Shown in pieces: positions 27,646 to 56,665 of a DNA stretch of 56,665 bases; position 1 is the first letter of the stretch; the number at the start of each line of letters is the position of its first letter. The stretch covers positions 1 to 56,665 of the forward strand of contig DUQH01000080.1 in the NCBI GenBank assembly GCA_012837895.1, in the 5' to 3' direction. The notes below the pieces were generated by a model, which worked only from the letters and a program-made list of their open reading frames with translations, made no database searches and had not been told where the DNA came from. The stretch comes from Candidatus Fermentithermobacillaceae bacterium. Lineage in GTDB: Bacteria; Bacillota; Sulfobacillia; Fermentithermobacillales; Fermentithermobacillaceae. Made by a program: the position numbers and the translations under genes.

Positions 27646-27700
27646 TTGTTTGGGAATAGACTGCCAGGGTTTGAGGCGACTCTAAGGAGTGAAATGCTAT

Positions 27701-28744
27701 ATGTTGGAAAAAGAAAAAGCTCTGGAGTTGGCCGTTGCTCAGATTGAAAAGCAGTTTGGCAAAGGGTCAATAATGAGATACGGCGATGCTCCTCAGAAGA
27801 TGGCGGTGGAGGTTATACCAACCGGTGCCCTGGCGCTGGATGTTGCCCTTGGAGTAGGGGGCATTCCCCGCGGGCGTATAGTAGAGATTTACGGTCCTGA
27901 AGGCTCAGGCAAGACTACCGTAGCTTTACATATCGTTGCAGAAGCACAGAAGGCCGGGGGAATTGCCGCATTTATTGATGCTGAGCACGCTTTGGATCCG
28001 GTATATGCCAGCAACCTCGGCGTTGATATTGAAAATCTGCTTATTTCCCAGCCTGACACCGGAGAGCAGGCGCTTGAAATTGTAGAGGCTTTAGTTAGAA
28101 GCGGTGCGGTAGATTGCATCGTTGTAGACTCAGTGGCAGCTTTATCTCCCCGCGCTGAAATCGAAGGCGAAATGGGCGATGCCCACGTAGGACTTCAAGC
28201 ACGGCTTATGTCCCAAGCTCTGAGGAAACTTACTGCCGTGGTGTCTAAGTCGAAGTCAACGGCGATTTTCATAAACCAAGTGCGGGAGAAAATAGGTATC
28301 ATGTTTGGAAATCCTGAGGTTACCCCCGGCGGAAGAGCCCTGAAATTCTACTCTTCTGTAAGGCTGGACGTAAGGAGAATCGAGAACCTGAAGCAAGGCA
28401 CTGAGACAATAGGTGCCAGAACCAGGATAAGGGTTGTGAAGAACAAGTTAGCCCCGCCTTTCAAGGAAGCTGAAGTAGACATTATCTTCGGAGAGGGGAT
28501 TTCCAAGGAAGGCTCTCTCTTGGATGTAGGCGTTGAGAAGGGTATCTTGACAAGGACGGGCACCTGGTATTCTTACGGGGACATCCGCCTTGGCCAGGGG
28601 AAAGAAAATGCCAGACAGTTTCTTAAGAACAATCCTGAAGTCAGCCAGGAGGTTGAAGCCAAGATTAGAGCCCTGCTAAACCCGGATAAGGCTGATACAG
28701 GAGATGCGGATGATGGCAAGTCCGGCAAACAGGGTAAGAAATAA
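27701..28744 (+). CDS. recA: Recombinase RecA
   Basis: RecA forms filaments on single-stranded DNA, catalyses strand exchange and triggers LexA self-cleavage. The 347-residue protein has the starting segment [11 protein letters not shown], Walker A GPEGSGKT, the [10 protein letters not shown]-like C-terminal region and the loop 2 region [19 protein letters not shown] 27701 is chosen: AAGGAG at 27684-27689 lies 11 bases upstream, whereas GTG 27689 overlaps that site. No intein or intron interrupts it. recX overlaps its 3' end. Confidence 0.98.
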
Positions 28745-29204
28745 GACGCCGATGTATGCTGCCCTGAACATTTTGTCAAGGCGGCAAGTGAGCACAGGCC
28801 AAATGCGGTTTATGCTCTCGAAAAAAGGGTTTGCACCTGATGATATAAGGGAGTGTATCGGGAAACTTGAGGAATGGGGTTATCTTAACGATGTGGTGCT
28901 TGCCAGGAATATCGTAGAAGCGATTATTCGTAATAGTCCATGCGGTAAGAAACGCTGCTTATACGAGCTCGAGAAACGACAATTCGACAGGGATCTGGCA
29001 AAAACCGTGGTAGAAGAAGTATATTCTGAGTATGACGAACGGGAACTGGCACATGCTGCAGCTAAGCAGTATGCACGAAACAAGACCGAATGGACCAACA
29101 GAGATAAGGAACGCCTGGCCCGGTGGCTATATGGCCGTGGATTTACTCATTCAACCATATTCTCTGTAATCAGGACATTTGGCCAGGCAGGAGACTATGA
29201 GTAG
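28710..29204 (+). CDS. recX: Regulatory protein RecX
   Basis: RecX binds and modulates RecA filaments. The ~164-residue protein shows the three-helix RecX repeats: [40 protein letters not shown] and a C-terminal [22 protein letters not shown] 28710 follows AGGAGA (28697-28702) and overlaps recA by 35 bases; ATGs at 28704, 28713 and 28752 are also possible. The overlap suggests translation coupled to recA, the usual arrangement. Confidence 0.88.
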
Positions 29205-29291
29205 CCGAACGAATGCTGGCTCTGCCTATGTTGATACCTGGGTACGTTTGTTGCGGAAGGATCCGGTAACTTGTGTTATGACACGTTAACA

Positions 29292-29309
29292 GATTGCGGC
29301 TGCGCAATC
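29292..29309 (+). repeat. Small perfect hairpin in the recX-rny gap
   Basis: GATTGCG (29292-29298) and CGCAATC (29303-29309) form a 7-bp stem with a 4-base loop. No T-run follows. It is in the 239-base gap between recX and rny, upstream of the leader terminator. Confidence 0.35.
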
Positions 29310-29392
29310 GTGTGAATATTTGCAATAATCTACACCATAACTTCCTGTTGCATATATAGGATCTTTACCAGGTAGACGGGGTTTTGACCAGT

Positions 29393-29418
29393 AAGCCGAG
29401 CGTGCTGCTCGGCTTTTT
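29393..29418 (+). terminator. Intrinsic terminator in the rny leader
   Basis: A 9-bp perfect stem AAGCCGAGC (29393-29401) / GCTCGGCTT (29407-29415), loop GTGCT, continues into a T-run. It ends 25 bases before the rny ATG, leaving no room for a promoter between it and rny, so it probably terminates recX read-through and may also attenuate rny. Confidence 0.8.
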
Positions 29419-29443
29419 CCACTTGCAGAGGAGGTGACAGGAA

Positions 29444-30973
29444 ATGCAGTATGTCTGGTATGTTGTAATGCTTGTTCTGGGTGCCTCGATAGGATACTTG
29501 CTTCGCAGGATCATCGGCGAAGCCAAGATAGCATCTGCTGAAACTGAAGCTCAGAGGATATTGGATCAGGCCATAAAAACGGCCGAAACCAAGCACAGGG
29601 AGATTGTACTCGAAGCCAGGGACAATGCTCAAAAGCTCAGGGCTGAGCTTGACAAGGAGTCCAGAGAAAGACGTCTTGAACTGCAGCGGTTGGAACGCAG
29701 GCTTATTAACAAGGAAGAAGGTCTAGACCGGAGGCAGGAATCCCTGAGCCGGAAGGAAGAGTCCCTGTCACGGCAGGAAAAATCACTTGCGCATAAACAG
29801 CGTGAACTTGAAGAATTGCACGAAATGTCCATCAAGGAACTTGAACGTATTTCAGGACTGTCGAGGGAAAGCGCTCGTGAGAGGATTCTCCAGGAAGTCA
29901 GGGAGACCCTTAAGGCAGAAACTGCGAGACTGATCAGGGATGCAGAAGATCAGGCAAAGGCAGAGGCTGAACGGAAGGCAAGGAGCATAATTGCCCTGGC
30001 TATTCAACGGTGTGCCGCCGACCATGTAGCAGAGAATACAGTGTCAGTAGTTGAACTCCCCAACGACGAGATGAAAGGCAGGATTATCGGCAGGGAAGGC
30101 AGGAATATCCGTACCCTCGAAACTCTTACAGGTATTGAACTCATAATTGATGATACCCCTGAGGCAGTTATCCTGTCTGGCTTTGATCCTATCAGGCGGG
30201 AAGTGGCCAGGCTTGCCCTTGAAAGGCTTGTTGCTGACGGACGGATCCACCCGGCACGTATAGAGGAAATGGTGGAAAAGGCAGAAAAGGACGTAGAGGC
30301 AATCATAAAGCAAGAGGGCGAACAGGCAGCAATCCGTCTAAGCGTACACGGCCTTCACCCTGAACTCATAAAACTGCTGGGCAGGTTGAAGTTCAGGACG
30401 AGTTACGGCCAGAACGTGCTGAAACATTCGGTCGAGGTAGCTCAGCTAGCTGCAAACATGGCCGCAGAGATCGGTGCCGATGTGAATCTTGCCAAACGTG
30501 CAGGGCTCCTGCATGATATTGGGAAGGCAGTGGACCACGAAGTTGAAGGTTCTCACGTAGGCATCGGGGTCAATTTGCTCAAGAGGTACAGGGAGTCCCA
30601 GGGTGTAATCAAGGCCATCGAAGCTCACCACGGCGATGTAGAGCCTCAGACTGTCGAAGCTTTCCTGGTAGCTGCAGCAGATGCTATATCCGCTGCACGT
30701 CCAGGTGCAAGAAGGGAAACCCTCGAGATGTATCTCAAACGGCTTGAGAAACTTGAGGAGATCGCCAATTCATTTGAAGGTGTAGAGAAGTCATACGCCA
30801 TCCAGGCCGGCAGGGAGATCAGGATCATGGTCAAACCTGAGAGAATAGATGACCTGGGCGCAGTTACCCTTGTCCGGGATATAGTCAACAGGATCGAGAA
30901 GGAACTGGAATATCCTGGTCAGATTAAGGTTACTGTGATCAGGGAAACAAGGGCTGTGGGTTACGCCAAGTAG
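29444..30973 (+). CDS. rny: Ribonuclease Y
   Basis: RNase Y is the membrane-anchored endoribonuclease that starts mRNA decay in many Firmicutes. The 509-residue protein has an N-terminal transmembrane helix ([18 protein letters not shown]), a long charged coiled coil (~30-200), a KH domain ([15 protein letters not shown]) and an HD domain ([20 protein letters not shown]). A GAGGAGGTGA ribosome binding site precedes ATG 29444. The order recA-(recX)-rny-ymdB-spoVS is conserved. Control may involve the leader terminator at 29393. Confidence 0.97.
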
Positions 30974-31029
30974 AAAATGCAGGGGCGCCGGTCCCGGCGC
31001 TCCTGATGTCAAACACGGAGTATACAGCA

Positions 31030-31581
31030 ATGTCTGAGAAGAAAGAGAACAGGGAGAACAAAACAACGCACACAAGAATGCACAGTGGAGTATCTCACAA
31101 CGAGATCGAAATACTTGCCGCACTGCTCGTGGCCTTTCCCCAGATATCAAGAGTCACTTTTGACCCGGAAAAGCGCATGCTAAGCATGGCGTTTTTGTGT
31201 GAAGGCCCAGTGAGCCAAGCTAAACGGAAGCAACTCCAATCGCTGTACCTTGACTCAATAGATGTCTACAGGGCGCTCACAAACAAAGACATGAGTACGG
31301 TCAAGTGCTACTGGGAAACCATTGACCAGTTTCATTGTTTTCATGTGGAAAGGGACGTGGCTTCCCTATCTACTGCTGAATTGAACCTGACAGCAACTTT
31401 GATTGCCGGGCAAGTCCAGCTGGTTTCAGATACAGATGAACCCTTTGCCGGTGAAGCTGAGTTTTCCTGGTCTGCAAAACTGCTCTTGCAGGAGATGCTG
31501 GAGCGAATCCGTGAACTGGAATGTCCAAGAACCCTGGTTGCCCTACGTGAAGGCGAAAAAGTAATCGTATTCCATAAGTGA
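31030..31581 (+). CDS. Protein of unknown function between rny and ymdB
   Basis: A ~183-residue soluble protein that I do not recognise. After a charged N-terminal tail it has ILAALLVAFPQISRVTFDPE and then a mixed alpha/beta pattern; HCFHVERDV is a His/Cys-containing stretch of unclear meaning. No membrane segment. ATG 31030 follows ACGGAG; ATG 31006 is also in frame. A G+C-rich hairpin (GCGCC/GGCGC around 30983-30998) without a T-run separates it from rny. It ends nine bases before ymdB, so the two are probably co-transcribed. Confidence 0.7.
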   Translation: MSEKKENRENKTTHTRMHSGVSHNEIEILAALLVAFPQISRVTFDPEKRMLSMAFLCEGPVSQAKRKQLQSLYLDSIDVYRALTNKDMSTVKCYWETIDQFHCFHVERDVASLSTAELNLTATLIAGQVQLVSDTDEPFAGEAEFSWSAKLLLQEMLERIRELECPRTLVALREGEKVIVFHK

Positions 31582-41769: not shown

Positions 41770-44463
41770 TTGTCAGGCAAGACTCCTATGATGCGTCAGT
41801 ATGAGGTGCTCAAAGCAAAGTACCGGGATTGTCTGCTTTTCTTCAGGCTCGGCGACTTTTATGAGATGTTTTTCGAGGACGCGAAAACAGGGTCAGAAGA
41901 ATTGGGCATTGCGCTTACCAGCCGGGGCTCGGTGAAAGGCGAGCGGGTCCCAATGTGCGGGGTGCCTTACCATTCAGTTGATGAGTACATAAGAACCCTT
42001 GTGTCCAAAGGGTACAAAGTTGCCATCTGCGAGCAAGTGGAAGACCCGTCAAAGGCAAAAGGGCTCGTGAAAAGAGACGTGGTAAGAGTCATAACTCCTG
42101 GTACGTACTGGGAAGGAGCAGAGGACGCTGCTTCAAACTACTTATCTGTAGTGTATGTAGGATACAAGGGGTTGGGGCTTGCCGGTTCAGTGGGGTTGTG
42201 TTCGGCTGACCTGTCTACTGGAGAAGTGCTGCTTGCCTGGTTTGACCCTGAGCAGACAGACGGTGGACCAAATCTCCACTTGAACAACGTCCTAGATGAA
42301 CTCACCCGCTTGCTGCCAAAGGAATGTGTGTTTCCTGCGAGCTTGGAAGGGACAAGCTTAGTTGGGGCAGTGTCAAAGAACCTCCCCGGGGTTCCTGTGA
42401 GTTTCCAGGATGATGATGAGTTTTGCCCTGAGAAGTACCTGAACTTGTTTGAGACAGGGTGGGGGCTAAACGATCTACCGGAACCTGCATACAGGGCGCT
42501 GGCAGGACTAATGGCTTACCTGGATGCCACTCAGATGATGGAACCAAGCCACCTGAAAAGACCCAGTCTTTATCTAGAAGAAGCTTTTGTGGAACTCGAT
42601 CAAGCTACCAGGAGAAACCTTGAACTGACTAAGCGCCTTCAAGGTGAAACCTACGGTTCACTTGCCTGGGTTCTGGACAAGTGTTGTACCACCATGGGGT
42701 CCAGGTTGCTGAAAAAATGGATAGAGCGTCCGCTGAGGGATCCTGTTTCGATACAGGAGAGGCTGGATGCAGTAGACGAAATCCATAGCAACGCATCATT
42801 GAGGAACAGCTTGCGGCAATCCCTTTCAGGCATCCGGGATTTGGAAAGGCTGGTTGCAAGGATTTCTTACAGGTCATGTAGCGCAAGGGACCTGATTGCG
42901 GTTGCTGCTTCCCTGGAACAAGTACCCCGTCTTAAGGAGCAAACAGCAGCTACTTCATCCCGCCTGCTTCAACGGATATCAGGTAACCTTGATGAAGTGC
43001 CTGAAGTGGCCAGTGCTATACGGGCAGCTATCGTGGATGATCCCCCGGTATCTGTGACAGAAGGGGGCATAATACGTCCAGGATACAGTCCTGAGGTGGA
43101 TGGACTGAGAGATCTGGCTACCGGGGGCAAACACTGGCTGGTTGAACTTGAAGCCAGGGAGCGGGAGAGGACCGGCATAAGATCCCTCAAGGTGGGATAT
43201 AACAGGGTTTTCGGATATTACTTGGAAGTGACCAAGCCCAACCTGAGTCTGGTGCCTGATGACTACATAAGGAAGCAGACGCTGGTATCGGCTGAGAGGT
43301 TCATCACCCCTGAGCTAAAAGAGAAAGAAACCGCCATTCTAGGAGCAGAAGAAAAACTGTTCAAAGAAGAGTACAGGCTCTTCTGTGAGTTGCGGGATTT
43401 TGTCGAATCCCATATCAGGAGATTGCAGCAGACTGCTGCAGCTATAGCCCAGCTGGATGTATGCTGCAGCTTAGCTGAAGTTGCATGCCTTTACGGGTAC
43501 GTCAGGCCTGAGGTGACCGGGGACGGGCCTATTATCATTAAAGAAGGGCGGCATCCTGTGTTGGAAAGGGTGCTTCCGCCTGGCAGTTTTGTGCCCAATG
43601 ACCTGGTACTCGACGAAAAGCAGAGCGTCTTGATTATCACCGGCCCTAATATGGGCGGCAAGTCAACCTATTGCCGTCAAACTGCCCTAATAGTGCTCAT
43701 GGCTCAAATGGGTTCATTTGTGCCATGCAGGTCTTGTACTATTTCGTGTGTGGACAGGATTTTTGCCAGGGTAGGCGCGTATGATGACTTGGTCCTGGGC
43801 CAGTCTACCTTCATGGTTGAGATGGACGAAGTGTCACGAATCCTGCGCAATGCCACTTCAAAGAGCCTTGTGATTCTTGATGAAATCGGCAGGGGCACCA
43901 GTACTTTCGACGGGCTTTCCGTTGCATGGGCAGTTGTAGAATTCTTGGCAGATAAGAAGACCATGGGCGCCAGGGGGCTTGTAGCTACCCACTACCGTGA
44001 ACTAACCCTGCTTTCTGATTTGAAAGAGGGGGTAGCCAATTATCACGTCACTGTCAAGAAATCAGGCGATGATATTGTGTTCCTAAGGAAAGTCCGGAAG
44101 GGGGTAGCCGAAGGCAGCTTCGGGATAGACGTTGCCCGTATGGCGGGCTTGCCTGACAGTGTGACGGCTAGGGCCAGGGAGATCCTTCATGCCCTTGAAA
44201 CTGAAGCCCGCAAAGGCGGTTCGGCCAAAGGAATTCTGGGCAAAGTGGCTTCGAGGAGTTCAGGAACTATGTTTGTACCTGAAGGCCAACATCTGTTGCT
44301 GGGTGCCGGGAGTTCACGTCCTGAAGATCATGTGCCTGAGAGTCACAGGGTAGTGATTTCCAAACTCAAGTCCCTTGATGTAAACAGCATGACGCCTCTG
44401 CAAGCCTTGGAACTACTACATACGGTTACGCAAGAATTGCGCCGTGAACAGGGTGATACCTAA
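41770..44463 (+). CDS. mutS: DNA mismatch repair protein MutS
   Basis: MutS recognises mismatches and recruits MutL. The 897-residue protein has the mismatch-reading Phe-x-Glu at F30-E32 (GDFYEMF), the clamp and lever domains, Walker A GPNMGGKSTYCRQ and Walker B LDEIGRGTSTFDG, and ends with a MutS C-terminal tail. The start is TTG 41770 with CGGAGGTCG upstream. Its stop overlaps the mutL ATG by one base (TAATG). Confidence 0.98.
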   Translation: MSGKTPMMRQYEVLKAKYRDCLLFFRLGDFYEMFFEDAKTGSEELGIALTSRGSVKGERVPMCGVPYHSVDEYIRTLVSKGYKVAICEQVEDPSKAKGLVKRDVVRVITPGTYWEGAEDAASNYLSVVYVGYKGLGLAGSVGLCSADLSTGEVLLAWFDPEQTDGGPNLHLNNVLDELTRLLPKECVFPASLEGTSLVGAVSKNLPGVPVSFQDDDEFCPEKYLNLFETGWGLNDLPEPAYRALAGLMAYLDATQMMEPSHLKRPSLYLEEAFVELDQATRRNLELTKRLQGETYGSLAWVLDKCCTTMGSRLLKKWIERPLRDPVSIQERLDAVDEIHSNASLRNSLRQSLSGIRDLERLVARISYRSCSARDLIAVAASLEQVPRLKEQTAATSSRLLQRISGNLDEVPEVASAIRAAIVDDPPVSVTEGGIIRPGYSPEVDGLRDLATGGKHWLVELEARERERTGIRSLKVGYNRVFGYYLEVTKPNLSLVPDDYIRKQTLVSAERFITPELKEKETAILGAEEKLFKEEYRLFCELRDFVESHIRRLQQTAAAIAQLDVCCSLAEVACLYGYVRPEVTGDGPIIIKEGRHPVLERVLPPGSFVPNDLVLDEKQSVLIITGPNMGGKSTYCRQTALIVLMAQMGSFVPCRSCTISCVDRIFARVGAYDDLVLGQSTFMVEMDEVSRILRNATSKSLVILDEIGRGTSTFDGLSVAWAVVEFLADKKTMGARGLVATHYRELTLLSDLKEGVANYHVTVKKSGDDIVFLRKVRKGVAEGSFGIDVARMAGLPDSVTARAREILHALETEARKGGSAKGILGKVASRSSGTMFVPEGQHLLLGAGSSRPEDHVPESHRVVISKLKSLDVNSMTPLQALELLHTVTQELRREQGDT

Positions 44464-46193
44464 TGCAAGCTCCCATCAGGAAATTGGATCCTTTGCTTTC
44501 CAGCCAAATAGCTGCAGGAGAAGTTGTAGAACGGCCTGCATCAGTTGTAAAGGAATTGGTCGAAAACGCCATTGATGCCGGAGCCGACAGGATCTCAATA
44601 GAGATAGTTGACGGGGGAATGGAACTGATCAGGGTGAGCGACAATGGCCGTGGAATGACCCGGGAAGACGCCCTCTTGTCCCTTGAACGGTTTGCCACAT
44701 CAAAGATAAGCTCAATAAGCGATCTGGATAATATGGAGACGCTTGGTTTCAGGGGTGAAGCCCTGCCCTCGATCGCGTCATGTTCGAGAATAGTGATGGA
44801 AACCAAGACGGCAGACTCTGAAACCGGGACCTATTTGCGTGTTGAGGGTGGCAACATGATTGACGTTGCAGAAAAAGGGCTGCCCCAAGGTACCACCATT
44901 ACAGTAACAGATTTGTTCTTCAATACCCCTGCCCGGTTTAAGTTCATGAAATCGAGGGCCACTGAAAGGAACGCAGTGGTTGAAACTGTTGAGCGGCTTG
45001 CCCTTGCGTGGCACCACATAAGCTTTACCCTCATGTCCCAGGGTAGGGCGGTGCTTCATACAACAGGCAAAGGACTGGAGGATGCACTGGCAAACATATT
45101 CGGGCCTGAAACAATTGAGTCAATGGCGGAAGTGTCAGGCGATTATGGCGGCATCAGGATCTGCGGTTTTGCAGGCCTGCCCAGATGTTACCGGAGGACC
45201 AGGGACAGGCAGTTGTTTTCTGTCAACCAGAGGCCGGTGAAAAATACTTCGCTTGGGTGGGCGCTGGATCACGCTTATGCCGGCCTGTTGCCGCCCAAGA
45301 CGTACCCCGTGGCGGTAATAGACCTCTCACTTGAACCAGGCGCCATAGACGTAAACGTACACCCTACAAAAGCAGAGATAAGGTTCGGGAATGAATCCCT
45401 TATAAGGCGCAGTATTACCCAAAGCGCGAAAGATGCTCTATCCCGTGCGGGCTACCTGAGTGAACCTGAAGCCAGGCACGGTCAGCCTCTTGGTAGGCAG
45501 GGTCAACCGGCTAGCATGTTCACGCCAAGAAGAGAGAATCAGCAAGATATCATCCAAGGCATCAGGCAGATGCAGATACAACCGTCAACCTTTCATGAGA
45601 AAGGGCCTCAGTTGATAGGTGAAGACACTTGTGAATGGCAGTACTTGGGCTCACTTCAGGACATATATCTTGTAGCTAAGACACCTCAATCCCTGCTTGT
45701 CATTGACCAGCATGCTCTAGCCGAAAGCCTTGCATATCACTCCATGTGCAGGGGGGAAAGCAGCAGCCAGGAGCTGTTGCTCCCTGAGGTCATCCAGTTG
45801 GAACCAACGGAAGCCTTGCTTTACGAGGAGTACAGGGATGAGTTGGAACAGGTTGGGTTCTCAACCAGGCTCATTGGCACACGGACTGTGTTGGTAACAG
45901 GAGTACCTGTTATCCTAGGACAACCCCTACCGGCAGCTTCAGTCAAACAGGTATTATTAACCGCCTATGAAGGATCACAGGACATGTCCCCCGACAGGGC
46001 CGTGGCGCAAGCCCGGATAGCTACCGCTGCCTGCCATGCATCCATCAAGGCCAAACAGTCCCTGACCAGACAGGAGGCACAGGTGTTGGTACAATCCCTG
46101 TGGGCCAACCCTGAAGCCCGGACATGCCCCCACGGAAGGCCGACAGTGCATGTAATTCCGGTTGCTGAGTTGAACAGGTTTTTCGGCCGTTAG
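44463..46193 (+). CDS. mutL: DNA mismatch repair protein MutL
   Basis: A 576-residue GHKL ATPase with an endonuclease C-terminus. ATP-binding motifs are ELVENAIDAGA, SDNGRGM and RGEALPSIAS. The C-terminal domain has the endonuclease motif DQHALAESLAYH (from D415), ACHASIKA and CPHGRPT. The usual motif is DQHA-x2-E-x4-E; here the final Glu is His426, which may still bind metal. mutH is absent, as expected for a nicking MutL. Start overlaps mutS. Confidence 0.97.
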   Translation: MQAPIRKLDPLLSSQIAAGEVVERPASVVKELVENAIDAGADRISIEIVDGGMELIRVSDNGRGMTREDALLSLERFATSKISSISDLDNMETLGFRGEALPSIASCSRIVMETKTADSETGTYLRVEGGNMIDVAEKGLPQGTTITVTDLFFNTPARFKFMKSRATERNAVVETVERLALAWHHISFTLMSQGRAVLHTTGKGLEDALANIFGPETIESMAEVSGDYGGIRICGFAGLPRCYRRTRDRQLFSVNQRPVKNTSLGWALDHAYAGLLPPKTYPVAVIDLSLEPGAIDVNVHPTKAEIRFGNESLIRRSITQSAKDALSRAGYLSEPEARHGQPLGRQGQPASMFTPRRENQQDIIQGIRQMQIQPSTFHEKGPQLIGEDTCEWQYLGSLQDIYLVAKTPQSLLVIDQHALAESLAYHSMCRGESSSQELLLPEVIQLEPTEALLYEEYRDELEQVGFSTRLIGTRTVLVTGVPVILGQPLPAASVKQVLLTAYEGSQDMSPDRAVAQARIATAACHASIKAKQSLTRQEAQVLVQSLWANPEARTCPHGRPTVHVIPVAELNRFFGR

Positions 46194-46214
46194 GTGTAAC
46201 CGCAGCCCATACTA

Positions 46215-46220
46215 TATAAT
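46215..46220 (+). promoter_or_regulatory. Possible -10 element before miaA
   Basis: TATAAT at 46215-46220 lies within a CCCAT (46206-46210) / ATGGG (46219-46223) inverted repeat. No good -35 hexamer is seen at 16-18 bp, so the promoter is tentative. Confidence 0.35.
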
Positions 46221-46264
46221 GGGATTATTAGGGGCAATCGAACGTATGAGAGGGTGTAGGGGTT

Positions 46265-47200
46265 ATGTTGAGCAAAGTGCTTGTAATCACAGGACCGACT
46301 GCTTCGGGGAAATCGCAGTTAGCTTTGGATTTGGCCGCAACATATCCCCTTGAGATTATATCTGCAGATTCAATGCAGGTTTATCGTTATATGGACATCG
46401 GCACCGACAAAGCTACCCCAGAGGAAATGAACCGGGTGCGCCACCATTTAATCGACATAAAGTATCCCGATGAAGACTGGAGTGTGAGCGAGTTCCAGGA
46501 ACTTGCCAGAAAGGCGGTAGCTGATATCGTACACAGGGGCCGCCTGCCATGCATAGTCGGGGGTACCGGGTTCTATATAAGGGCGTTGCTGTACGATTTC
46601 CCACTGAAGGATGCACCCCCCAACAGGAAGCTGCGGCAAGAACTGAGCGACCTGGCAAAACGCCGTGGCAACGCTGTAGTCCACGATATGCTTAAACACG
46701 TCGATCCTGAGTCATACAGGAGCCTTCACCCTAATGACCTGAAAAGGGTAATAAGGGCGATTGAATATTACCAGGCGACAAACCGCCCAATATCTGAACG
46801 CAAACATCTCGAAAAAGAGCGCATCTATGACTCCCTGATGATAGGACTCAAATGGGATCGTAAAGAATTGTATGAAAGAATCGATGATAGAGTGGACGAA
46901 CAATTTAGTAGAGGGCTTGTTGAAGAAGTACTGGTTCTTGTAGATAAGGGATATTCCGAAGATCTAAATAGTATGCAAGGGTTGGGATACAAAGAGGTAT
47001 ACTGGATGCTCAAAGGGTTGGCCACAGAAGCTGAAACGAGAGCCATATTGAAAAGAAATTCCAGGAGGTTTGCGAAGAGGCAACTGACATGGTTTTCCAA
47101 GGAGGAAGGCATAATTTGGCTGCCCTTTGGTAAGCATAAGTCTCGAAATCAGCTTATAGAACAAGCCCGGCGTTTGATTGATGATTGGCTTGAAACATGA
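46265..47200 (+). CDS. miaA: tRNA dimethylallyltransferase
   Basis: MiaA transfers a dimethylallyl group to A37 of tRNAs, making the i6A substrate of MiaB. The 311-residue protein begins with the P-loop [17 protein letters not shown] and has [18 protein letters not shown] and [15 protein letters not shown], all diagnostic. ATG 46265 follows a GAGGGTGTAGGGG stretch. hfq follows 34 bases downstream, the same order as in many bacteria. Confidence 0.97.
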
Positions 47201-47234
47201 TTCATGCACCGGAGGACAACTGGAGGGAACAAAC

Positions 47235-47519
47235 ATGGGTGCGAAAAGTGCGATCAATCTTCAGGACAGCTACTTGAACCAGATCAGAAAGGACAACGTT
47301 CTTACCACAGTATACCTTGTCAACGGATTTCAACTTAAGGGTCTGGTAAAAGCTTTCGACAGCTACACGGTTCTTCTTGATGTAGACGGCAAACAAATGC
47401 TCATATACAAACATGCCATTTCCACGATCAACCCTTTAAGGCCTGTGAGCCTTTCAGTCCAGCGCGACAGGGGATCTGACGAGGATGCAATAGTAGAAGA
47501 TGAGCTCTCTCAGAGTTAA
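47235..47519 (+). CDS. hfq: RNA chaperone Hfq
   Basis: Hfq is the hexameric Sm-like RNA-binding protein for sRNA-mRNA pairing. The 94-residue protein has the Sm1 region ([20 protein letters not shown]), [18 protein letters not shown] and the Sm2 motif YKHAIST, then an acidic C-terminal tail. ATG 47235 has GGAGGG seven bases upstream; a longer frame from 47178 overlaps miaA and includes that site. Confidence 0.96.
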
Positions 47520-47556
47520 GCAGCTGTAGCCGGTGTTCTGAAGCCAGATGGTCTTC

Positions 47557-47586
47557 TGGCATGAATTCAGCGCCTTTGGGTATACT
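47557..47586 (+). promoter_or_regulatory. Weak promoter candidate before the YHS gene
   Basis: TATACT (47581-47586) with a poor TGGCAT (47557-47562) 18 bases upstream. A stem GCCAGA/TCTGGC (47543-47560) sits between hfq and this element without a T-run. Confidence 0.3.
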
Positions 47587-47622
47587 CCTCTCTGAAAGCG
47601 GTGTTTTCAGGGAGGTGATAAC

Positions 47623-47841
47623 ATGCCAAGGGACCCTGTGTGTGGAATGAATGTCCGCGATCGAGACGAGTCCTTACAGTCAGAGTTCAGAGGTCAGACC
47701 TATCATTTCTGCTCAGACAGGTGTCTGGCCACCTTTGAGCAGGATCCGGAGACGTTCTCACAACTCTTGGAGGATGAACAATCCCAGAAGCAGAGAAAAC
47801 GCAGTAGAAAGCAAGACCAAGGGCGTGAGCGGTTTACGTAG
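47623..47841 (+). CDS. Small YHS-domain protein
   Basis: A 72-residue protein. Residues 3-48 form a YHS domain (DPVCGMNVRDRDESLQSEF, YHFCSDRCLATFEQDPE) with the metal-binding cysteine pattern C...CxxxC known from heavy-metal ATPases and other metal proteins. A basic, highly charged tail (QKQRKRSRKQDQGRERF) follows. AGGGAGGTGA precedes ATG 47623. A role in metal handling is the usual inference; no metal transporter gene is nearby. Confidence 0.88.
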   Translation: MPRDPVCGMNVRDRDESLQSEFRGQTYHFCSDRCLATFEQDPETFSQLLEDEQSQKQRKRSRKQDQGRERFT

Positions 47842-47879
47842 AGGCACTGTGTGTCTCATGGATGATTAGACAAGAGACG

Positions 47880-47892
47880 GGTACATTGTACC
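47880..47892. repeat. Perfect 13-bp palindrome
   Basis: GGTACA-T-TGTACC, a perfect inverted repeat with one central base, 38 bases after the YHS gene. It has operator-like symmetry, but no promoter can be assigned to it. Confidence 0.35.
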
Positions 47893-47929
47893 ATCGAGCA
47901 AACTATATAGCGCCAATTGTGCCAACGAT

Positions 47930-47962
47930 CAGCCTCTGCCTGCAGGAAGCAGGCGGGGGCTG
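47930..47962 (+). terminator. Strong hairpin, possible terminator after the YHS gene
   Basis: CAGCC-tc-TGCCTGC (47930-47943) pairs with GCAGGC-ggg-GGCTG (47949-47962) around loop AGGAA, then TTGTGTGTTGT. The T-run is interrupted by G, so termination may be partial. Confidence 0.5.
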
Positions 47963-48038
47963 TTGTGTGTTGTCCTCACTATCATACCTGCATCTTGATG
48001 CGTATAATGATCCGGCAACGCCAAGTCACAAGTGTTAG

Positions 48039-48971
48039 ATGTGGGGAGGAATCAAAATCGCTGTTCATGGCAACAGACCTACCCTGAAGGTTGTATCAAC
48101 CAGAGATCCCGTGCCCTCTCAGAATTCCCAGGTACAGGAACATGTGTTCAAGGGATTGATGCGCGGGAAGAGCGCTTTGGAAGAACTCAATTCCTTGGTG
48201 GGGATGTCACACATAAAAGACCTTATACTTGAAATCTACGCGTTCGCTGAAGTGCAAAGGCGCAGGAGCAAGGCCGGACTGTTACAAGAGAACACAACAC
48301 TTCATATGATCTTCAAAGGCAATCCTGGCACGGGAAAGACCACTATTGCGAGGATTCTCGGAAAACTGCTTTTTCAGGCAGGACTTCTGGCCAAAGGACA
48401 CGTGGTAGAAGTTGAACGGGCGGATCTTGTGGGCGAGTATATCGGCCATACGGCGCAGAAGACCAGGGAGAACATCCGTAAAGCTCTGGGAGGCATCCTT
48501 TTCATAGACGAAGCTTATTCTTTGGCCAGGGGCGGGGAGAAGGATTTCGGCAAGGAATGCATCGATTGTATCGTCAAAGGTATGGAAGACCACGCCAAGG
48601 AGTTAGTCGTCATCCTGGCCGGCTACCCTAAGGAGATGGAGCACTTTCTCGATACTAACCCGGGTTTGCGTTCCCGGTTTCCAATCCACCTGACCTTCCC
48701 AGATTATACGATCGATGAGCTGGTTCAAATAGGTTGCCTCATGCTTAAGAACAGGGATTACCGGCTTGCCGACGGCCTAACCCCGGTGTTCGAAACCATC
48801 ATCAGGGAGAAGGCCGGGCAAGAGTTAATCCCGTCTAACGCGAGGATGGTTAGGAACCTGATTGAAAAGGCAATCCGGAGGCAAGCTGTCAGGTTAATGC
48901 AGTGCAATTCTTTCAATAAACAAGATCTCATGACTATAGCTTCAAGGGATCTGCTTGAAGCTTCGGTGTGA
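48039..48971 (+). CDS. spoVK: SpoVK-like AAA ATPase (CbxX/CfxQ family)
   Basis: A 310-residue AAA+ ATPase with Walker A GNPGTGKTTIAR, Walker B ILFIDEAYSLARGG, sensor ILAGYPKEMEHFL and NPGLRSRFP, the signature set of the CbxX/SpoVK family. B. subtilis SpoVK is needed for late spore maturation and sits next to ynbA/hflX and ynbB as here. The start is uncertain: ATG 48039 has no ribosome binding site, while GGGGAGG (48043-48049) lies just inside without an in-frame start codon at proper distance. TATAAT at 48003-48008 may be the -10 element. Confidence 0.9.
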   Translation: MWGGIKIAVHGNRPTLKVVSTRDPVPSQNSQVQEHVFKGLMRGKSALEELNSLVGMSHIKDLILEIYAFAEVQRRRSKAGLLQENTTLHMIFKGNPGTGKTTIARILGKLLFQAGLLAKGHVVEVERADLVGEYIGHTAQKTRENIRKALGGILFIDEAYSLARGGEKDFGKECIDCIVKGMEDHAKELVVILAGYPKEMEHFLDTNPGLRSRFPIHLTFPDYTIDELVQIGCLMLKNRDYRLADGLTPVFETIIREKAGQELIPSNARMVRNLIEKAIRRQAVRLMQCNSFNKQDLMTIASRDLLEASV

Positions 48972-49074
48972 TGTCACAGCTTTGACTTGTTCACACTAAT
49001 TTCCTATCCAAATGCGGAACTTATCAGCTTTCCATCACACCCCGCACAGTTTCTGTTAAGTTCCTGTTATAGTA

Positions 49075-49080
49075 TATAAT
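49075..49080 (+). promoter_or_regulatory. Predicted -10 element before hflX
   Basis: TATAAT (49075-49080) lies 32 bases before the hflX TTG. The -35 region is poor (TTCTGT, 49051-49056, 18 bp away). Confidence 0.4.
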
Positions 49081-49111
49081 CAGTTGGGAGTGATAATCAG
49101 GAGGGAAATAC

Positions 49112-50401
49112 TTGAACAACCTCTCTGAAGCAACTAGCATGAAGGCAATTATCTGTGCCTTAGATATCAAAGCGCCCAGACTCAGGGATATGAACGAAAT
49201 ATCCCTTACGGCAGAGGAGTCAGCCCAGGAGCTTGCCCGCCTTGCCGAGACTCTTGGGCTGGAAGTGGTGGATACCGTGATCCAGGAAAGATTTTCACCT
49301 GACCCTGCCACTTACTTAGGCAAAGGCAAGGTCCAGGAGATCGCGGGGCTCGTCTCGGACAAGGGAGCTTCCTACGTGTTGATTGACGGCCAACTGTCCC
49401 CGTCCCAGTCCCACAACTTAGAAGAAGCACTTGGGGCTCTGGTGCTTGACCGGACAGAGGTCATCCTCAGGATCTTCGCCCAGCGCGCAAAGACCAAGGA
49501 AGGCAAATTACAGGTGGAACTTGCTACCCGGAGGCATGAACTTACCCGGCTTACAGGCCACGGCACAGCCATGTCCAGCTTGGGAGGGGGGATTGGCACC
49601 CGTGGACCGGGAGAGCAAAAACTGGAGATGGACCGGAGAGTCCTTAGAAGACGTATATCCCAGCTGACCAGGAGCCTGGACAAAGTACGCAGGGTAAGGG
49701 AAGGGCAGCGGAAACGCAGGAGGCAGTCGCGGATTCCACAAGTATCCCTGGTTGGCTACACCAATGCAGGGAAGTCCACTCTGTTTAGGGCGCTTACAGG
49801 CGAAGAAGTGCTGTGTGACGATATGCTTTTTGCAACACTCGACCCTTGGACCAGAAGGTGGGTTCTGCCGTCTGGAATGGTAGTGTTACTGTCTGACACT
49901 GTTGGGTTCATACAAGGGTTGCCCCACGAGCTGGTCTATGCATTCAGGGCCACTCTAGAGGAATCTCTCGAAGCAAACTTGCTTATACACGTGGTCGATG
50001 CTTCTTCAGTCACATGGATACACCAGGTTGAGACTGTAGAAGCTGTGCTGGGTGAATTAGGTGCATCCGATATTCCAACCATTACGGTGTTCAATAAGGG
50101 AGATATGCTCTCAGAGAAGGACCTGGATAATATGGTCATGGAAACCGGAGGCAGCACTCTGGCCATTTCGGCCTTGCATGGCCATGGCCTGGATGAGCTG
50201 GCTGCATTGGTTGAAGAGGAACTCCTGGCGGATTCACACCTTGTTTCCCTCTTAGTGCCTTATTCAAAGTGGGACATTGTTTCTGAAATACGCGCTTGCG
50301 GGTCAATACTTGACGAGGCACATGGAGATTCAGGAGCAGTGATTACATGCAGGTTAAGTCCTGTAGAATTCCAGAGAATAAAGAAAAAGCTTTCAGGGTG
50401 A
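49112..50401 (+). CDS. hflX: Ribosome-splitting GTPase HflX
   Basis: HflX binds 50S subunits, splits stalled or hibernating 70S ribosomes and uses GTP. The 429-residue protein has the N-terminal HflX domain (RFSPDPATYLGKGKVQEIA), a coiled-coil linker, the GGGIGTRGPGEQKLE motif and a G domain with GYTNAGKSTLF (G1), DTVGFI (G3) and FNKGD (G4). TTG 49112 follows AGGAGGG. Same order as B. subtilis spoVK-ynbA(hflX)-ynbB. Confidence 0.96.
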   Translation: MNNLSEATSMKAIICALDIKAPRLRDMNEISLTAEESAQELARLAETLGLEVVDTVIQERFSPDPATYLGKGKVQEIAGLVSDKGASYVLIDGQLSPSQSHNLEEALGALVLDRTEVILRIFAQRAKTKEGKLQVELATRRHELTRLTGHGTAMSSLGGGIGTRGPGEQKLEMDRRVLRRRISQLTRSLDKVRRVREGQRKRRRQSRIPQVSLVGYTNAGKSTLFRALTGEEVLCDDMLFATLDPWTRRWVLPSGMVVLLSDTVGFIQGLPHELVYAFRATLEESLEANLLIHVVDASSVTWIHQVETVEAVLGELGASDIPTITVFNKGDMLSEKDLDNMVMETGGSTLAISALHGHGLDELAALVEEELLADSHLVSLLVPYSKWDIVSEIRACGSILDEAHGDSGAVITCRLSPVEFQRIKKKLSG

Positions 50402-50408
50402 TGTGACA

Positions 50409-51722
50409 TTGAGATTGCACCATAGTCAGTTTGATGTATCACAGAACACGTTTGAACTAGCGCAGGACTGTATCGCCGGATTATCAGATGTTTGGAAACG
50501 CATAGATGATCTCGTGTTTTCAAATCAGGCCAGGGTACTGCGAGCTTTTGGCAACACCAGGGTGTCACTTTCGCACATGTGGCCTTCCACCGGCTATGGG
50601 TACGGGGACGCTGGCCGGGACGGTTTGGAACAGTTGTTCGCCGAGGTGTTTGGCGGAGAGTCGTCCCTTGTGAGGCTCGCCTGGACCTCTGGAACCCACG
50701 TCCTTAAGACTGCCCTTTTCGGGCTCTTGCGCCCGGGGGATGTACTCCTGTCAGTTACCGGAACACCCTACGAAACTCTCCGGCCTGTAATAGGCATTTC
50801 CTCTCAGGAAAGCGAGGTTTCAGGCAACAGTTTGATCGGTCTGGGTGTTGGGTACCGTGAGTGTTCGTGCCTGGTTGATTTTGAGTCAGGACTGATTGAC
50901 AGCAATGATCTAGAGAACGCGCTGGCTCAACACATTACCCAGGATAACACGGTGATCCTCGTTCAACGTTCAAGAGGGTATTCAAGCAGGAAGACTATTT
51001 CAATGGAATCTCTCAAGAGGTTCATGGAAATCGTAGGCAGACGATGGCCTAATGTCATGACCTTTGTGGATAATTGCTACTGTGAGTTTACCGATGTCTA
51101 TGAACCACCGGCGCTTGGCGTATCAATTACTGCAGGTTCACTCATTAAGAACCCCGGAGGCGGGTTGGCAGCCACAGGAGGGTATGTGGTAGGACATAAG
51201 AAGTACGTAAATCTAGTCGCAGAGTCCTTATATGCTCCAGGGCTTGGAAGTGATGCAGGAAGTAATCCATACGGATACAGGGATGTGTACCAGGGGTTGT
51301 TTCTCGCGCCAAAGGTAGTGGGCGAGGCTCTTAAGGGGGCGTGTTTCGCATCCCTGTTTTTCAGCAAGTTGGGTTACAAGACAGATCCGGGGCCTTTTGA
51401 AAGCAGGGGGGACATTGTGCAGCAGATCATAATGGAAAAGCCTGAGGCGCTGATAGCTCTTGCCAGGGCGGTGCAAGCTGCTTCGCCTGTGGATTCGTTT
51501 GCTTCACCTGAACCGTGGGATATGCCTGGATATTCCCACCCGGTAATCATGGCGGCAGGGACGTTTGTGCAAGGGGCATCGATAGAATTCTCTTGCGATG
51601 GGCCCTTCATCCCTCCTTATTCTGCTTACCTCCAGGGAGGGCTTACAAAGGAGCACGTGGTTTATGCATGTATGAAGGCGAAAGATGCTTTAGATGCGCT
51701 GGAAATAATCCCTGATCGATAA
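50409..51722 (+). CDS. ynbB: YnbB-like PLP-dependent enzyme (aluminium-resistance / methionine gamma-lyase family)
   Basis: A 437-residue fold-type I PLP enzyme. The cofactor lysine lies in GSLIKNPGGGLAATGGY, and LAWTSGTHVLKTALFGLL is the phosphate-binding region. COG4100 members are annotated as aluminium-resistance or methionine gamma-lyase-like proteins; the true reaction is unknown. TTG 50409 is preferred: AGGGTGA at 50395-50401 is seven bases upstream, while GTG 50403 is too close. It starts just after the hflX stop and is likely co-transcribed; it is convergent with lexA. Confidence 0.9.
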   Translation: MRLHHSQFDVSQNTFELAQDCIAGLSDVWKRIDDLVFSNQARVLRAFGNTRVSLSHMWPSTGYGYGDAGRDGLEQLFAEVFGGESSLVRLAWTSGTHVLKTALFGLLRPGDVLLSVTGTPYETLRPVIGISSQESEVSGNSLIGLGVGYRECSCLVDFESGLIDSNDLENALAQHITQDNTVILVQRSRGYSSRKTISMESLKRFMEIVGRRWPNVMTFVDNCYCEFTDVYEPPALGVSITAGSLIKNPGGGLAATGGYVVGHKKYVNLVAESLYAPGLGSDAGSNPYGYRDVYQGLFLAPKVVGEALKGACFASLFFSKLGYKTDPGPFESRGDIVQQIIMEKPEALIALARAVQAASPVDSFASPEPWDMPGYSHPVIMAAGTFVQGASIEFSCDGPFIPPYSAYLQGGLTKEHVVYACMKAKDALDALEIIPDR

Positions 51723-51762: not shown

Positions 51763-52374
51763 CTAGTGGAGGGAGCGGTACAACCCTATCACTTTGCCTA
51801 GTATCCTGACGTCCTTTGAGATGATTGGGCTCATTTCCGGGTTCTCAGGCTGTAGCCTGATGGCTCCTTCCTCTTTGTAAAAGGTTTTTACTGTAGCTTC
51901 ATCGTCAATGAGCGCTACTACAATATCGCCATTATCTGCAGTTTCTTGCTGTCTTACAAGCACAAGATCCCCGTCATGGATACCGGCGCCGATCATGCTG
52001 TCGCCTTCAACCTGAAGCATGAATACGTTCTCGCTTCTCACAAATGAGCGTGGAAGAGGCACAAATTCTTCTATGTTCTCAACAGCAAGCACAGGCACGC
52101 CGGCACGGACCATGCCTACTACAGGAACCATTACAGTCGGTGCAGCTTGTTCATGTACGTTATCTCCTACTATGGCATAGGCGCGGGATTTCTGGGCAGC
52201 CTTGAGCAGATACCCCTTGCGTTCAAGGGTTCTAAGATGACTATGCACGGTAGCTGTAGATTTGAGGCCTAGCTTTTTCCCCAGTTCCCTGACTGAGGGT
52301 GGATAGCCGGTTTCGTGGATGTGCTGCCGGATAGTCTCGAGTACCCTGGCTTGCTGGTAAGTGAGCTTTTCCAT
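51763..52374 (-). CDS. lexA: LexA repressor
   Basis: LexA represses the SOS genes and cleaves itself when RecA filaments form. The 203-residue protein has a winged helix (PPSVRELGKKLGLKSTATVH), the cleavage site A91-G92 (MVRAGVPVLAVEN), catalytic S126 (EGDSMIG) and K163 (ATVKTFY). ATG 52374 follows AAGGAGAGG on the minus strand. A palindrome overlapping its own -35 (52454-52467) suggests autoregulation. recA lies ~24 kb upstream. Confidence 0.97.
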   Translation of the reverse strand: MEKLTYQQARVLETIRQHIHETGYPPSVRELGKKLGLKSTATVHSHLRTLERKGYLLKAAQKSRAYAIVGDNVHEQAAPTVMVPVVGMVRAGVPVLAVENIEEFVPLPRSFVRSENVFMLQVEGDSMIGAGIHDGDLVLVRQQETADNGDIVVALIDDEATVKTFYKEEGAIRLQPENPEMSPIISKDVRILGKVIGLYRSLH

Positions 52375-52427: not shown

Positions 52428-52467
52428 AGTTTACCATCAACCCATCGCTAAAGCAAACGTCAGTTTG
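52428..52467 (-). promoter_or_regulatory. lexA promoter with overlapping LexA-box-like operator
   Basis: On the minus strand TTGCTT (plus 52451-52456) and TAAACT (plus 52428-52433) are spaced by 17 bp. The palindrome CAAAC-GTCA-GTTTG (52454-52467) overlaps the -35 and is close to the Gram-positive SOS box (CGAAC-N4-GTTCG). Confidence 0.65.
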
Positions 52468-53002: not shown

Positions 53003-53857
53003 ATGACTGAGAGCACACTTCATGAGGCGTGCCACTTTATCTTTTCAACTGAAAGACAGATGGTTCCGGTACTGGAAAAATGCCTTGAACTCGCAGGCAG
53101 GCACGACTGCCTTGAAGAAGTAGATGAGCTGGTGTCTATTCACAGGCATGTGATTCACGACTGTGATGAGCTTATGGTTGTCATGGGGGTGGAGAGTACA
53201 ACTGGAGTAGTTGAGATGACCATTCCCAATGATTTTGCGACTTGTATCATAGTTATTCACAGGCACTTTGTAAGGGTAATCGATGACGGGTACATCATTA
53301 TCGATCCACGCGCTTCCGATCCTGGCCAAAAGTCGGTGCTTGAGAGGGTAACAGGGCGGAAGGCAGAGCAAATGCGGTTGCTGCGGAGGATCGCTGCGAA
53401 ATGCGGAATAAGCCTCTCAGACGAGGATGACGACCCATCATCAAGACGGCCTGACAGGCGTCCTGAGATGCCTGAAAGGCCTAGGGAAAGAACAGAGTAT
53501 GTGGTCCAACAAGGCGATACCATGTTCAGCATCGCCAGGAAGTTCGGTGTGCCCCTTGAAGTCCTTATACGTGCTAACCCGCAAGTCCGCAACCCGGACA
53601 TGATAATAGTGGGAGAAATAATCATTGTGCCAAGGGGACCCCATCATGAGCACCGTCCAGACCGCGACCATGACCACCGCCCTGAGTATGGCAGGAGGTA
53701 TGTTGTGAGGCAGGGGGACACTATGTTCCTTATAGCTCAAAGGTTCGCTATCAACCTGTCCGAGCTTATTGCATTCAACCCTCAAATCGAAGACTCAAAT
53801 GTACTGGTACCGGGGCAGATAGTACTGATCCCGACATCAGGCGGGGCAGTTGGCTAG
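53003..53857 (+). CDS. Protein with helical N-domain and two LysM domains (spore coat/SafA-like)
   Basis: A 284-residue protein. Residues ~1-135 are helical and His/Cys-rich (HEACHFIF, VSIHRHVIHDCDELM, CIIVIHRHFVRV), hinting at a four-helix or metal-binding bundle. Two LysM domains follow (165-210, YVVQQGDTMFSIARKFGVPL; 232-277, YVVRQGDTMFLIAQRF), separated by a His/Arg/Asp-rich linker. No signal peptide is visible, as in spore coat proteins such as SafA that enter the forespore coat from the mother cell; this role is inferred. GGGAGAGAGGAGAGGGG precedes ATG 53003. Confidence 0.85.
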   Translation: MTESTLHEACHFIFSTERQMVPVLEKCLELAGRHDCLEEVDELVSIHRHVIHDCDELMVVMGVESTTGVVEMTIPNDFATCIIVIHRHFVRVIDDGYIIIDPRASDPGQKSVLERVTGRKAEQMRLLRRIAAKCGISLSDEDDDPSSRRPDRRPEMPERPRERTEYVVQQGDTMFSIARKFGVPLEVLIRANPQVRNPDMIIVGEIIIVPRGPHHEHRPDRDHDHRPEYGRRYVVRQGDTMFLIAQRFAINLSELIAFNPQIEDSNVLVPGQIVLIPTSGGAVG

Positions 53858-53955: not shown

Positions 53956-55215
53956 TTACCTTATTATCCTGCGGCCTTCAAGAAATTTGTCATGTAAGGA
54001 TGCTGAGTAATCTGAATGGGAAGGATTAAAGCTGTTAATGGCTACACCTCCCGAACTCCCTGAATGGATATACCGGTAATCACCGATGTAAATCCCTACG
54101 TGAGACGGGCCAGGCCTGTATGTTTCGAAAAACACAAGATCGCCCGGCTCAAGTTCTTCTATCAACTTCACCGGGGTGCCCTGTTCATATTGGAGGTCTG
54201 CGTCTCTCCTGAGGTGATAGCCATTCATCTTGAAACAGAATTGAGTGAACCCTGAGCAGTCAAATCCATAAGCAGTGCAGCCACCCCAAAGGTAGGGAAG
54301 GCCGAGGTATAGCTCAGCAGTCTCAATAACGTCAGCAGCGGTTTTTTGTTCAACAAACACACTGTCCAGGTCCGGGAAAACCATTGCACTGTCTGCCTCA
54401 ACAAAGGTGCTGCCTCCGCCGGGCAAGCTAAGTTCAATCCATCCGTGGTCAACAGACGATACTGGCAGTACAGAACCTTGTACCAACCACCTAGCGAACA
54501 ACAGGCGTCCGTCAGGGCTGTCCAAAGCTTGCGTCATCTTAGCGGTTATCAGGGCAACCTCTCCCGACCAGAAAGTATCTAGTGAATCATGATCGTAAAG
54601 CGCGATACTTGCAGGGCTCACCCAACCAAGGTAATTATCTTGCATTTGAACCAGATACCAGCCGTCCTGTTGATCTAGGACGCGCACTATATCGCCCATT
54701 CTCGCCTGGGTAACTGTGCTGCTTCCTTCCGAGCGGCCGGGAGCTTCCCCAAGGTTTATCACGGGCTGTTTGACAATTCCATATGTCTTATCGCCCAATT
54801 CAGGAGCCGGCAAGACGGTAAGGCAGTCGCTTACCGTTATCCCAGGGATCTGGGAGATCGCGTCAAACAGGGACTGTTTCAATTGTTCATCAGAAGTCTT
54901 GCCTGTCAAAGCTACTGTTCCATCCTCAACTCCCGGATCGATCTCCAAAACTGTCTCTCTGTAACACAGATTGGCTTCTTCTAGAACATCTTCTATGGCA
55001 GAGTTGACACTTGCGAGTATTTCATCATCGGAATAGGCAGGGGCGGGCTCGGAATGGGGAGGTTCAGAATGGGGAGGGGTAACTTGTTGTGCCTGCGGCT
55101 GACACCCTGCTATCAGTACCACTAGGCCTAAGAACGCCAGAAGTAGCAGTCGCTCCAAAACGAGATACCTGAATCTCACGTGTTTCCTATGCCGGCCATT
55201 AGTGCAACAATTCAC
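53956..55215 (-). CDS. NlpC/P60 lipoprotein with BON-like and SH3 domains
   Basis: A 419-residue exported peptidoglycan hydrolase. A lipobox (LVVLIAGC, C38) ends the signal peptide. After a Pro-rich linker comes a BON-like segment (~60-130), an SH3-like domain (~165-205, IVRVLDQQDGWYLVQ), and an NlpC/P60 catalytic domain with C320 (DCSGF), H372 (SHVGIYIGD) and H384. It should cut stem-peptide bonds at the cell surface. GTG 55215 has AGGAGGAG seven bases upstream on the minus strand. Its promoter region has unusual tandem repeats (55307-55354). Confidence 0.9.
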   Translation of the reverse strand: MNCCTNGRHRKHVRFRYLVLERLLLLAFLGLVVLIAGCQPQAQQVTPPHSEPPHSEPAPAYSDDEILASVNSAIEDVLEEANLCYRETVLEIDPGVEDGTVALTGKTSDEQLKQSLFDAISQIPGITVSDCLTVLPAPELGDKTYGIVKQPVINLGEAPGRSEGSSTVTQARMGDIVRVLDQQDGWYLVQMQDNYLGWVSPASIALYDHDSLDTFWSGEVALITAKMTQALDSPDGRLLFARWLVQGSVLPVSSVDHGWIELSLPGGGSTFVEADSAMVFPDLDSVFVEQKTAADVIETAELYLGLPYLWGGCTAYGFDCSGFTQFCFKMNGYHLRRDADLQYEQGTPVKLIEELEPGDLVFFETYRPGPSHVGIYIGDYRYIHSGSSGGVAINSFNPSHSDYSASLHDKFLEGRRIIR

Positions 55216-56012: not shown

Positions 56013-56040
56013 ACGTCCGATAATATACATTATGTTAACT
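56013..56040 (+). other. dif: dif chromosome-dimer resolution site (XerC/XerD)
   Basis: The XerC arm ACGTCCGATAA (56013-56023), central hexamer TATACA (56024-56029) and XerD arm TTATGTTAACT (56030-56040) match known dif sites: recalled B. subtilis dif arms are ACTTCCTAGAA, TATATA and TTATGTAAACT (23 of 28 positions equal), and the E. coli XerD arm is TTATGTTAAAT. It is intergenic and lies beyond lexA, as in B. subtilis. It marks the replication terminus, where XerCD with the FtsK/SpoIIIE translocase resolves chromosome dimers. Confidence 0.9.
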
Positions 56041-56158
56041 AAGATCTTATCCAAGGTAGAGGCCTTATTCGGGCATGTGAAAAGCCCTGGATGTTATTCC
56101 GGGGCCATTTATGTCCAAACTGGTCTGATCTGAATGGACTCTAGTCGTGTAGTCTTTG

Positions 56159-56644
56159 TCAGTCTGAGAGTCCGAACGACTCCCAGAAAGCTTTGAAAGC
56201 TTCCACTGCTTGATTGTAAGCAGCTTCTTTTTCAGCTAATTGCTGTTCGCTTATCTCGCCGTCTCTATAAAGCACCTTAGCTAGTTCAAACTCAAGTTTC
56301 TTTATCTGGTATTCCTGCTTCATCAGAGTGCCTTCAATAGCGCCTATGGAGTTGCTGTAAGCCATCGACTGTTCACCCGGCGGCATAGAAACCTCCCTGA
56401 GCATGCCTACCCTTTCCATGGCGTTGGCCAGGGAAAATCTGGTATTGAAGGTGTAGCTTACATCCTCGTCAGGATGAACCGGCTGGAGCTCTTCTTCTAT
56501 GGAAGGTTCCATGGCTACAGGCTCCTTTTGAGCTTGCGGTGCTTCTGTGGTGCATCCGGATACAGCCAGTGCCAGTACTACAAGGCAAGTTGTTAGCCAA
56601 AGCAAGTGCGTCTTTTTCAGCAGAATCACCTCCAAACTGGTCAC
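56159..56644 (-). CDS. Small lipoprotein of unknown function
   Basis: A lipoprotein of up to 161 residues: hydrophobic signal (LLWLTTCLVVLALAVSGC) with lipobox Cys, then a Glu/Pro-rich linker and a helical C-terminal domain (KQEYQIKKLEFELAKVLYRD). I do not recognise a family. The start is unclear: GTG 56644 gives the longest form, but a strong TTGGAGGTGATT site lies just inside and points to a CTG at 56623 or 56620 (LLKKTHLLWL), which would give a normal signal peptide. It is the last gene in the window, 118 bases beyond dif. Confidence 0.75.
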   Translation of the reverse strand: MTSLEVILLKKTHLLWLTTCLVVLALAVSGCTTEAPQAQKEPVAMEPSIEEELQPVHPDEDVSYTFNTRFSLANAMERVGMLREVSMPPGEQSMAYSNSIGAIEGTLMKQEYQIKKLEFELAKVLYRDGEISEQQLAEKEAAYNQAVEAFKAFWESFGLSD

Positions 56645-56665
56645 GTATGTACGACCCCAAGCTGG

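Follow-up and report, generated by a model that had tools for sequence, protein, structure and literature searches.

The DNA analysed here, called the window throughout, is a stretch of 56,665 nucleotides from a Candidatus Fermentithermobacillaceae bacterium (contig DUQH01000080.1 of GenBank assembly GCA_012837895.1). Close to its right-hand end, in a 943-bp intergenic gap between two minus-strand genes with lipoboxes, lies a 28-bp XerC/XerD recombination site (dif) that is preceded by a long run of conserved genes. Curated models identified recA, recX, rny, mutS, mutL, miaA, hfq, the gene of a SpoVK-like ATPase, hflX, a ynbB homologue and lexA, and the features of the locus are as follows:

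27689–31581, plus strand: recA (start 27689), recX, rny (RNase Y) and a small gene, 24–28 kb from dif
41770–51722, plus strand: mutS (start 41770), mutL, miaA, hfq, spoVK-like gene, hflX and ynbB, a conserved run up to lexA and dif
51763–52374, minus strand: lexA (TIGR00498, 242.9 bits against a cut-off of 110.95)
52454–52467: palindrome CAAACGTCAGTTTG with perfect arms upstream of lexA, a candidate LexA operator
53003–53857, plus strand: double-LysM gene (284 aa, SafA-like), divergent from lexA
53956–55215, minus strand: left neighbour of dif, a lipoprotein with SH3 and NlpC/P60 domains (lipobox ...LVVLIAGC)
56013–56040, plus strand: dif, 28 bp, ACGTCCGATAATATACATTATGTTAACT
56013–56023: XerC arm of dif, 11 bp, ACGTCCGATAA
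56024–56029: central hexamer of dif, 6 bp, TATACA
56030–56040: XerD arm of dif, 11 bp, TTATGTTAACT
56159–56644, minus strand: right neighbour of dif, a putative lipoprotein of 161 aa belonging to no family (lipobox ...LALAVSGC)

An earlier note on this DNA had placed the site between two lipoprotein genes and had described the gene order recA, mutSL, hfq, hflX, lexA and dif; both minus-strand neighbours do carry lipoboxes, and the genes are all present in that order. The lexA gene lies 3.6 kb from dif and is transcribed away from it, head-on to the incoming replication fork. The SH3/NlpC-P60 lipoprotein gene adjoins dif in all family members examined. The gene for the 161-aa protein adjoins dif in two relatives (G001 and G002), is 6.6 kb from it in a third (G003) and was not seen next to dif in the remaining genera fetched.

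Most bacteria that have a circular chromosome can be expected to possess a dif site, and that of B. subtilis was reportedly described by Sciochetti, Piggot and Blakely in 2001. Comparison with reference dif sequences (taken from PMC3025954) showed that the window 28-mer is identical to B. subtilis dif at 23 of 28 bases and to E. coli dif at 19 of 28, and that every other position of the window reaches at most 17 of 28 against the B. subtilis site. The E. coli dif/XerCD/FtsK system shares the same architecture despite the lower identity, and B. subtilis dif likewise consists of 28 bp with two 11-bp arms and a 6-bp centre, differing in its hexamer (TATATA in place of TATACA). A 19-base dif core had no mismatch at the window site, as compared with 0.22 matches expected in shuffled windows at up to three mismatches. 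This 11-6-11 layout and the identity to B. subtilis dif bear out the 28-bp XerC/XerD site with arms and hexamer that had been described from the letters of the window, and the single-copy check proposed along with it also came out in its favour: at up to three mismatches the 28-mer was found once in its own genome assembly (2,047,056 bases in 146 contigs, 96% complete, with about 4% of the genome absent), where a reversed control sequence gave no match in the same search. The 28-mer is present with 0–2 changes in its 23-base core in six family members (G001, G002, G003, G007, G010 and G012), and has been kept in relatives where the sequence to its left has diverged. An identical 25-mer also occurs in other, partly distant Bacillota, among them two Candidatus Fermentithermobacillaceae contigs, a Syntrophomonadaceae MAG and Ferroacidibacillus/Sulfoacidibacillus. 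Directly after dif, at 56041–56046, the motif A(A/G)GATC is found in all four members of the genus (the window and G001–G003), a short extension of the conservation past the 28-mer on the XerD side.

A search for xerC and xerD, which the earlier note had suggested, recovered two PF00589 tyrosine recombinases from the genome of the window. XerD was identified with 412 bits against a cut-off of 329.6; the second recombinase is XerC-like and falls just under the NCBIfam XerC cut-off (317.7 against 335.15 bits), but its gene is found in the order topA-xerC-hslV-hslU, which is also that of B. subtilis. The genome further encodes a single FtsK/SpoIIIE protein, made up of alpha, motor and gamma domains (PF01580, PF17854 and PF09397), and resembles the B. 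subtilis system in having both recombinases and FtsK. By analogy with the E. coli and B. subtilis systems, FtsK would bring two sister dif sites together at the septum and its gamma domain would activate XerD, after which strands would be exchanged across TATACA by XerD first and then by XerC, turning a dimeric chromosome into two monomers. We infer the binding of the Xer proteins to dif, as well as this order of exchange and the activation of XerD, from those two systems, and the window dif appears as an ordinary site of a known type that very probably works as it does in B. subtilis and E. coli. Around dif in the family members, the analysis did not establish any orienting motif for FtsK: candidate motifs GGGNAGGG and GAGAAGGG had low counts, and GGGNAG was skewed toward dif, a bias that may merely track base composition or GC skew because AGGAGG was skewed likewise. 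A KOPS orientation like that of the E. coli system was likewise not established.

The relation of dif to the replication terminus was determined from GC skew and from the distance to dnaA. Skew is positive over most of the length of the window, and as the contig ends 625 bp past dif the switch lies outside its view; both measures were read from relatives, the genome of the window itself being divided among 146 contigs. Five family members (G002, G003, G007, G010 and G012) show a change of skew sign no more than about 4 kb from dif, with mean values that are positive on its left side and clearly negative on its right. In some of these a dip is already visible over the final 4 kb leading up to dif, a segment that has lexA and the NlpC gene on the minus strand. 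Sampling of the complete chromosome of another family member (G006; 2,316,832 bp) in 20 pieces of 20 kb gave positive skew from dnaA as far as dif and negative skew over the other arm, back to dnaA. The skew changes from +0.054 to −0.051 in the 4-kb bins around dif and switches a second time between the samples that flank dnaA, and dif and dnaA of G006 are separated by 0.48 of the chromosome. A separation of 0.42–0.49 of the chromosome was obtained for 18 of the 19 genomes in which a single complete or near-complete contig carries both dif and dnaA; some of the genome sizes behind these fractions are rounded. The sole exception was G120, in which dif (C1:2578187) is only 0.24 from dnaA (C1:53939). 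The lexA gene of this genome (C1:1436298) lies at 0.42, and the short distance of dif may reflect strongly unequal chromosome arms, a recent inversion or an assembly error. The relatives checked have dif in the same orientation with respect to the replichore, and E. coli dif has the same arm order relative to the replichore as the window site.

The GC-skew check proposed in the earlier note, run here on relatives, therefore shows a switch at dif, and the claim that dif puts the window at the replication terminus is supported by the five family members and by the complete chromosome of G006. It follows that the contig breaks off at the terminus, at position 56665, that the window represents the last 56 kb of one replichore and that dif anchors an otherwise fragmented genome. 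From their position, the repair genes near dif would be at low copy number in growing cells, with a small effect in slow growers.

We conclude, with a probability of about 0.95, that positions 56013–56040 are the chromosomal dif of Fermentithermobacillaceae-type Bacillota, where the two replichores meet. The 28-mer could instead be the att remnant of a mobile element using host Xer enzymes, as elements that exploit Xer are known (PMC5357621), ten IMG/VR contigs each possess one close dif-like 22-mer and more than one dif-like site is present in two of the relatives (G023 and G135). This origin is nonetheless highly improbable in view of the single copy in the genome, with no second dif flanking foreign DNA, of the turn of the GC skew at dif in relatives and of the recurrence of the same site with the same left neighbours throughout the family, and no integrase, phage or transfer gene was seen nearby. 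The site is also AT-rich and intergenic, as a palindrome formed by chance between genes might be, and we give such an accident practically no weight: the core match is exact where 0.22 matches were expected even at three mismatches, the identity to B. subtilis dif is well separated from the background of 17 of 28, the 28-mer was kept as its left flank diverged, and its conservation at the same position in other species rules chance out.

The ten IMG/VR loci (L083–L092) may be phages using host Xer enzymes or fragments of host termini, and no matches to the window genes were found in them. The paired sites in G023 (C46 and C119) and G135 (C127 and C137) are both good dif-like sequences in each genome, for which Xer-integrated elements or duplicated or mixed contigs are possible explanations.

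Gene mapping around the chromosomal dif demonstrated that its left neighbourhood is conserved. Wherever the fetched contigs of the family reach, the order is recA-recX-rny-...-mutS-mutL-miaA-hfq-(spoVK)-hflX-ynbB-lexA-NlpC-dif, and in G007, G010 and G012 the recA-recX-rny block has the same order 20–24 kb from dif, with recA at about 23–24 kb. In the class sample of 151 relatives, 48 had dif and lexA on one contig; lexA was within 10 kb of dif in 36 of these (18 families) and pointed away from it in all 48. An evenly drawn phylum sample of 199 genomes included 64 with a strict dif and a listed lexA, 56 of them with both on one contig, and here the two were separated by at most 2 kb in 27, 10 kb in 43 (24 families) and 30 kb in 50. 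Of the latter, 47 had lexA on the XerC-arm side, on the minus strand and pointing away from dif, and in the closest cases dif was 150–900 bp upstream of lexA. By simple arithmetic, the chance of any one gene lying 10 kb or less from a given point of a 2.5-Mb genome is below 1%, although the phylum genomes, being related, are not independent trials. Most of 20 genomes fetched around dif showed parts of the mutS/L-miaA-hfq-spoVK-ynbB-lexA run, a left-side conservation that is partly preselected because nearly all of these were chosen for a nearby lexA, and the fair measure of the linkage is the unselected class and phylum counts. On the other flank, no gene family recurred within 6 kb of dif in four or more of the 20 genomes.

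The earlier note had held the terminus neighbourhood to be conserved in this lineage, and the conservation is wider than claimed, extending through family, class and phylum. The mutSL-miaA-hfq-spoVK-hflX-ynbB-lexA(-)-dif neighbourhood is phylum-wide, and the genes from recA through mutSL, hfq, hflX and ynbB to lexA on the XerC-arm side represent an ancient terminus arrangement that has remained linked to dif. The B. subtilis neighbourhood was represented by a stand-in, G264, a genome with a dif identical to the B. subtilis one; its ynbB and lexA lie on the same flank of dif as in the window, but lexA is 22 kb away as compared with 3.6 kb in the window, and its right flank had no match to the window genes. 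The gene neighbourhood of E. coli dif is unrelated to that of the window. No paper stating the lexA-dif linkage was found in the open-access texts searched, though the linkage may have been reported elsewhere.

The region between lexA and dif was analysed for elements of the SOS response. The strict form of CAAACGTCAGTTTG occurs once in the window and is unchanged in G001–G003, and CAAAC-N4-GTTTG is kept in G007, G010 and G012. No GAAC-N4-GTTC operator was found between lexA and the LysM gene of the window, the family having CAAAC-N4-GTTTG, and CAAACGTCAGTTTG looks like a shifted LexA operator relative to the GAAC-N4-GTTC of other Bacillota. A divergent pair of lexA and an SOS division inhibitor, lexA-yneA (sosA), is already known in Gram-positive bacteria (PMC6851548). 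Many relatives possess a comparable arrangement directly beside dif, with lexA, a small LysM-containing membrane protein encoded divergently from it and, in the space separating the two, palindromes resembling LexA boxes; a small YneA-like gene was found between lexA and dif in 11 of the 20 genomes fetched around lexA-near dif sites. Six of the 11 were tested and had NF010723 as their best match, two of them above its cut-off, and the gap between lexA and yneA in several YneA-carrying genomes contained as many as three palindromes of the GAAC-N4-GTTC type. The window differs from this pair in its putative CAAAC-N4-GTTTG operator and in the double-LysM gene that occupies the slot. Identity of the latter as a YneA-type SOS division suppressor was not supported, as it scored 25.8 bits against an NF010723 cut-off of 60, over part of the LysM only, and encodes 284 aa with two LysM domains rather than a small protein with one. 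No counterpart was found at this slot in G007, G010 and G012. The YneA-like gene has been lost or replaced in the family of the window, and the double-LysM gene is a possible replacement of yneA.

The simpler reading of the lexA-dif linkage is inherited gene order rather than selection. As a yardstick, lexA and ynbB were within 10 kb of each other in 45 of 49 of the same phylum genomes and always convergent, and since this pair is kept at least as well as lexA-dif, plain inheritance explains the linkage; dif acts much as an additional element of a conserved series of genes would. Selection through late replication, gene dosage or SOS control of division at the terminus may have acted in addition to inherited order, rather than in its place, and would agree with the short distances in 24 families and the near-uniform orientation, with the YneA-like genes in 11 of 20 genomes, several preceded by LexA-box-like palindromes, and with the right flank of dif showing no comparable conservation. 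We regard this addition as doubtful, as inversions symmetric about the terminus also hold terminal genes near dif, the YneA-like gene was not retained in the window's own family, lexA is 22 kb from dif in the B. subtilis-like G264 and the yardstick pair is kept at least as well. Similarly unlikely is an ancient Bacillota terminus block of lexA, a divergent SOS-induced division-suppressor gene and dif, one that selection would maintain and that would link the response to DNA damage and the arrest of division with the point that is replicated last and at which dimers are resolved. The linkage raises the question of whether the terminus position of the SOS repressor and division inhibitor matters.

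The occurrence of lexA near dif, on one side and in one orientation in at least 24 families, provides a simple dif finder for draft Bacillota genomes, which is to look upstream of lexA. In G169, one of the phylum genomes, lexA and the accepted dif-like match are 2.2 Mb apart, and this match is perhaps a false dif.
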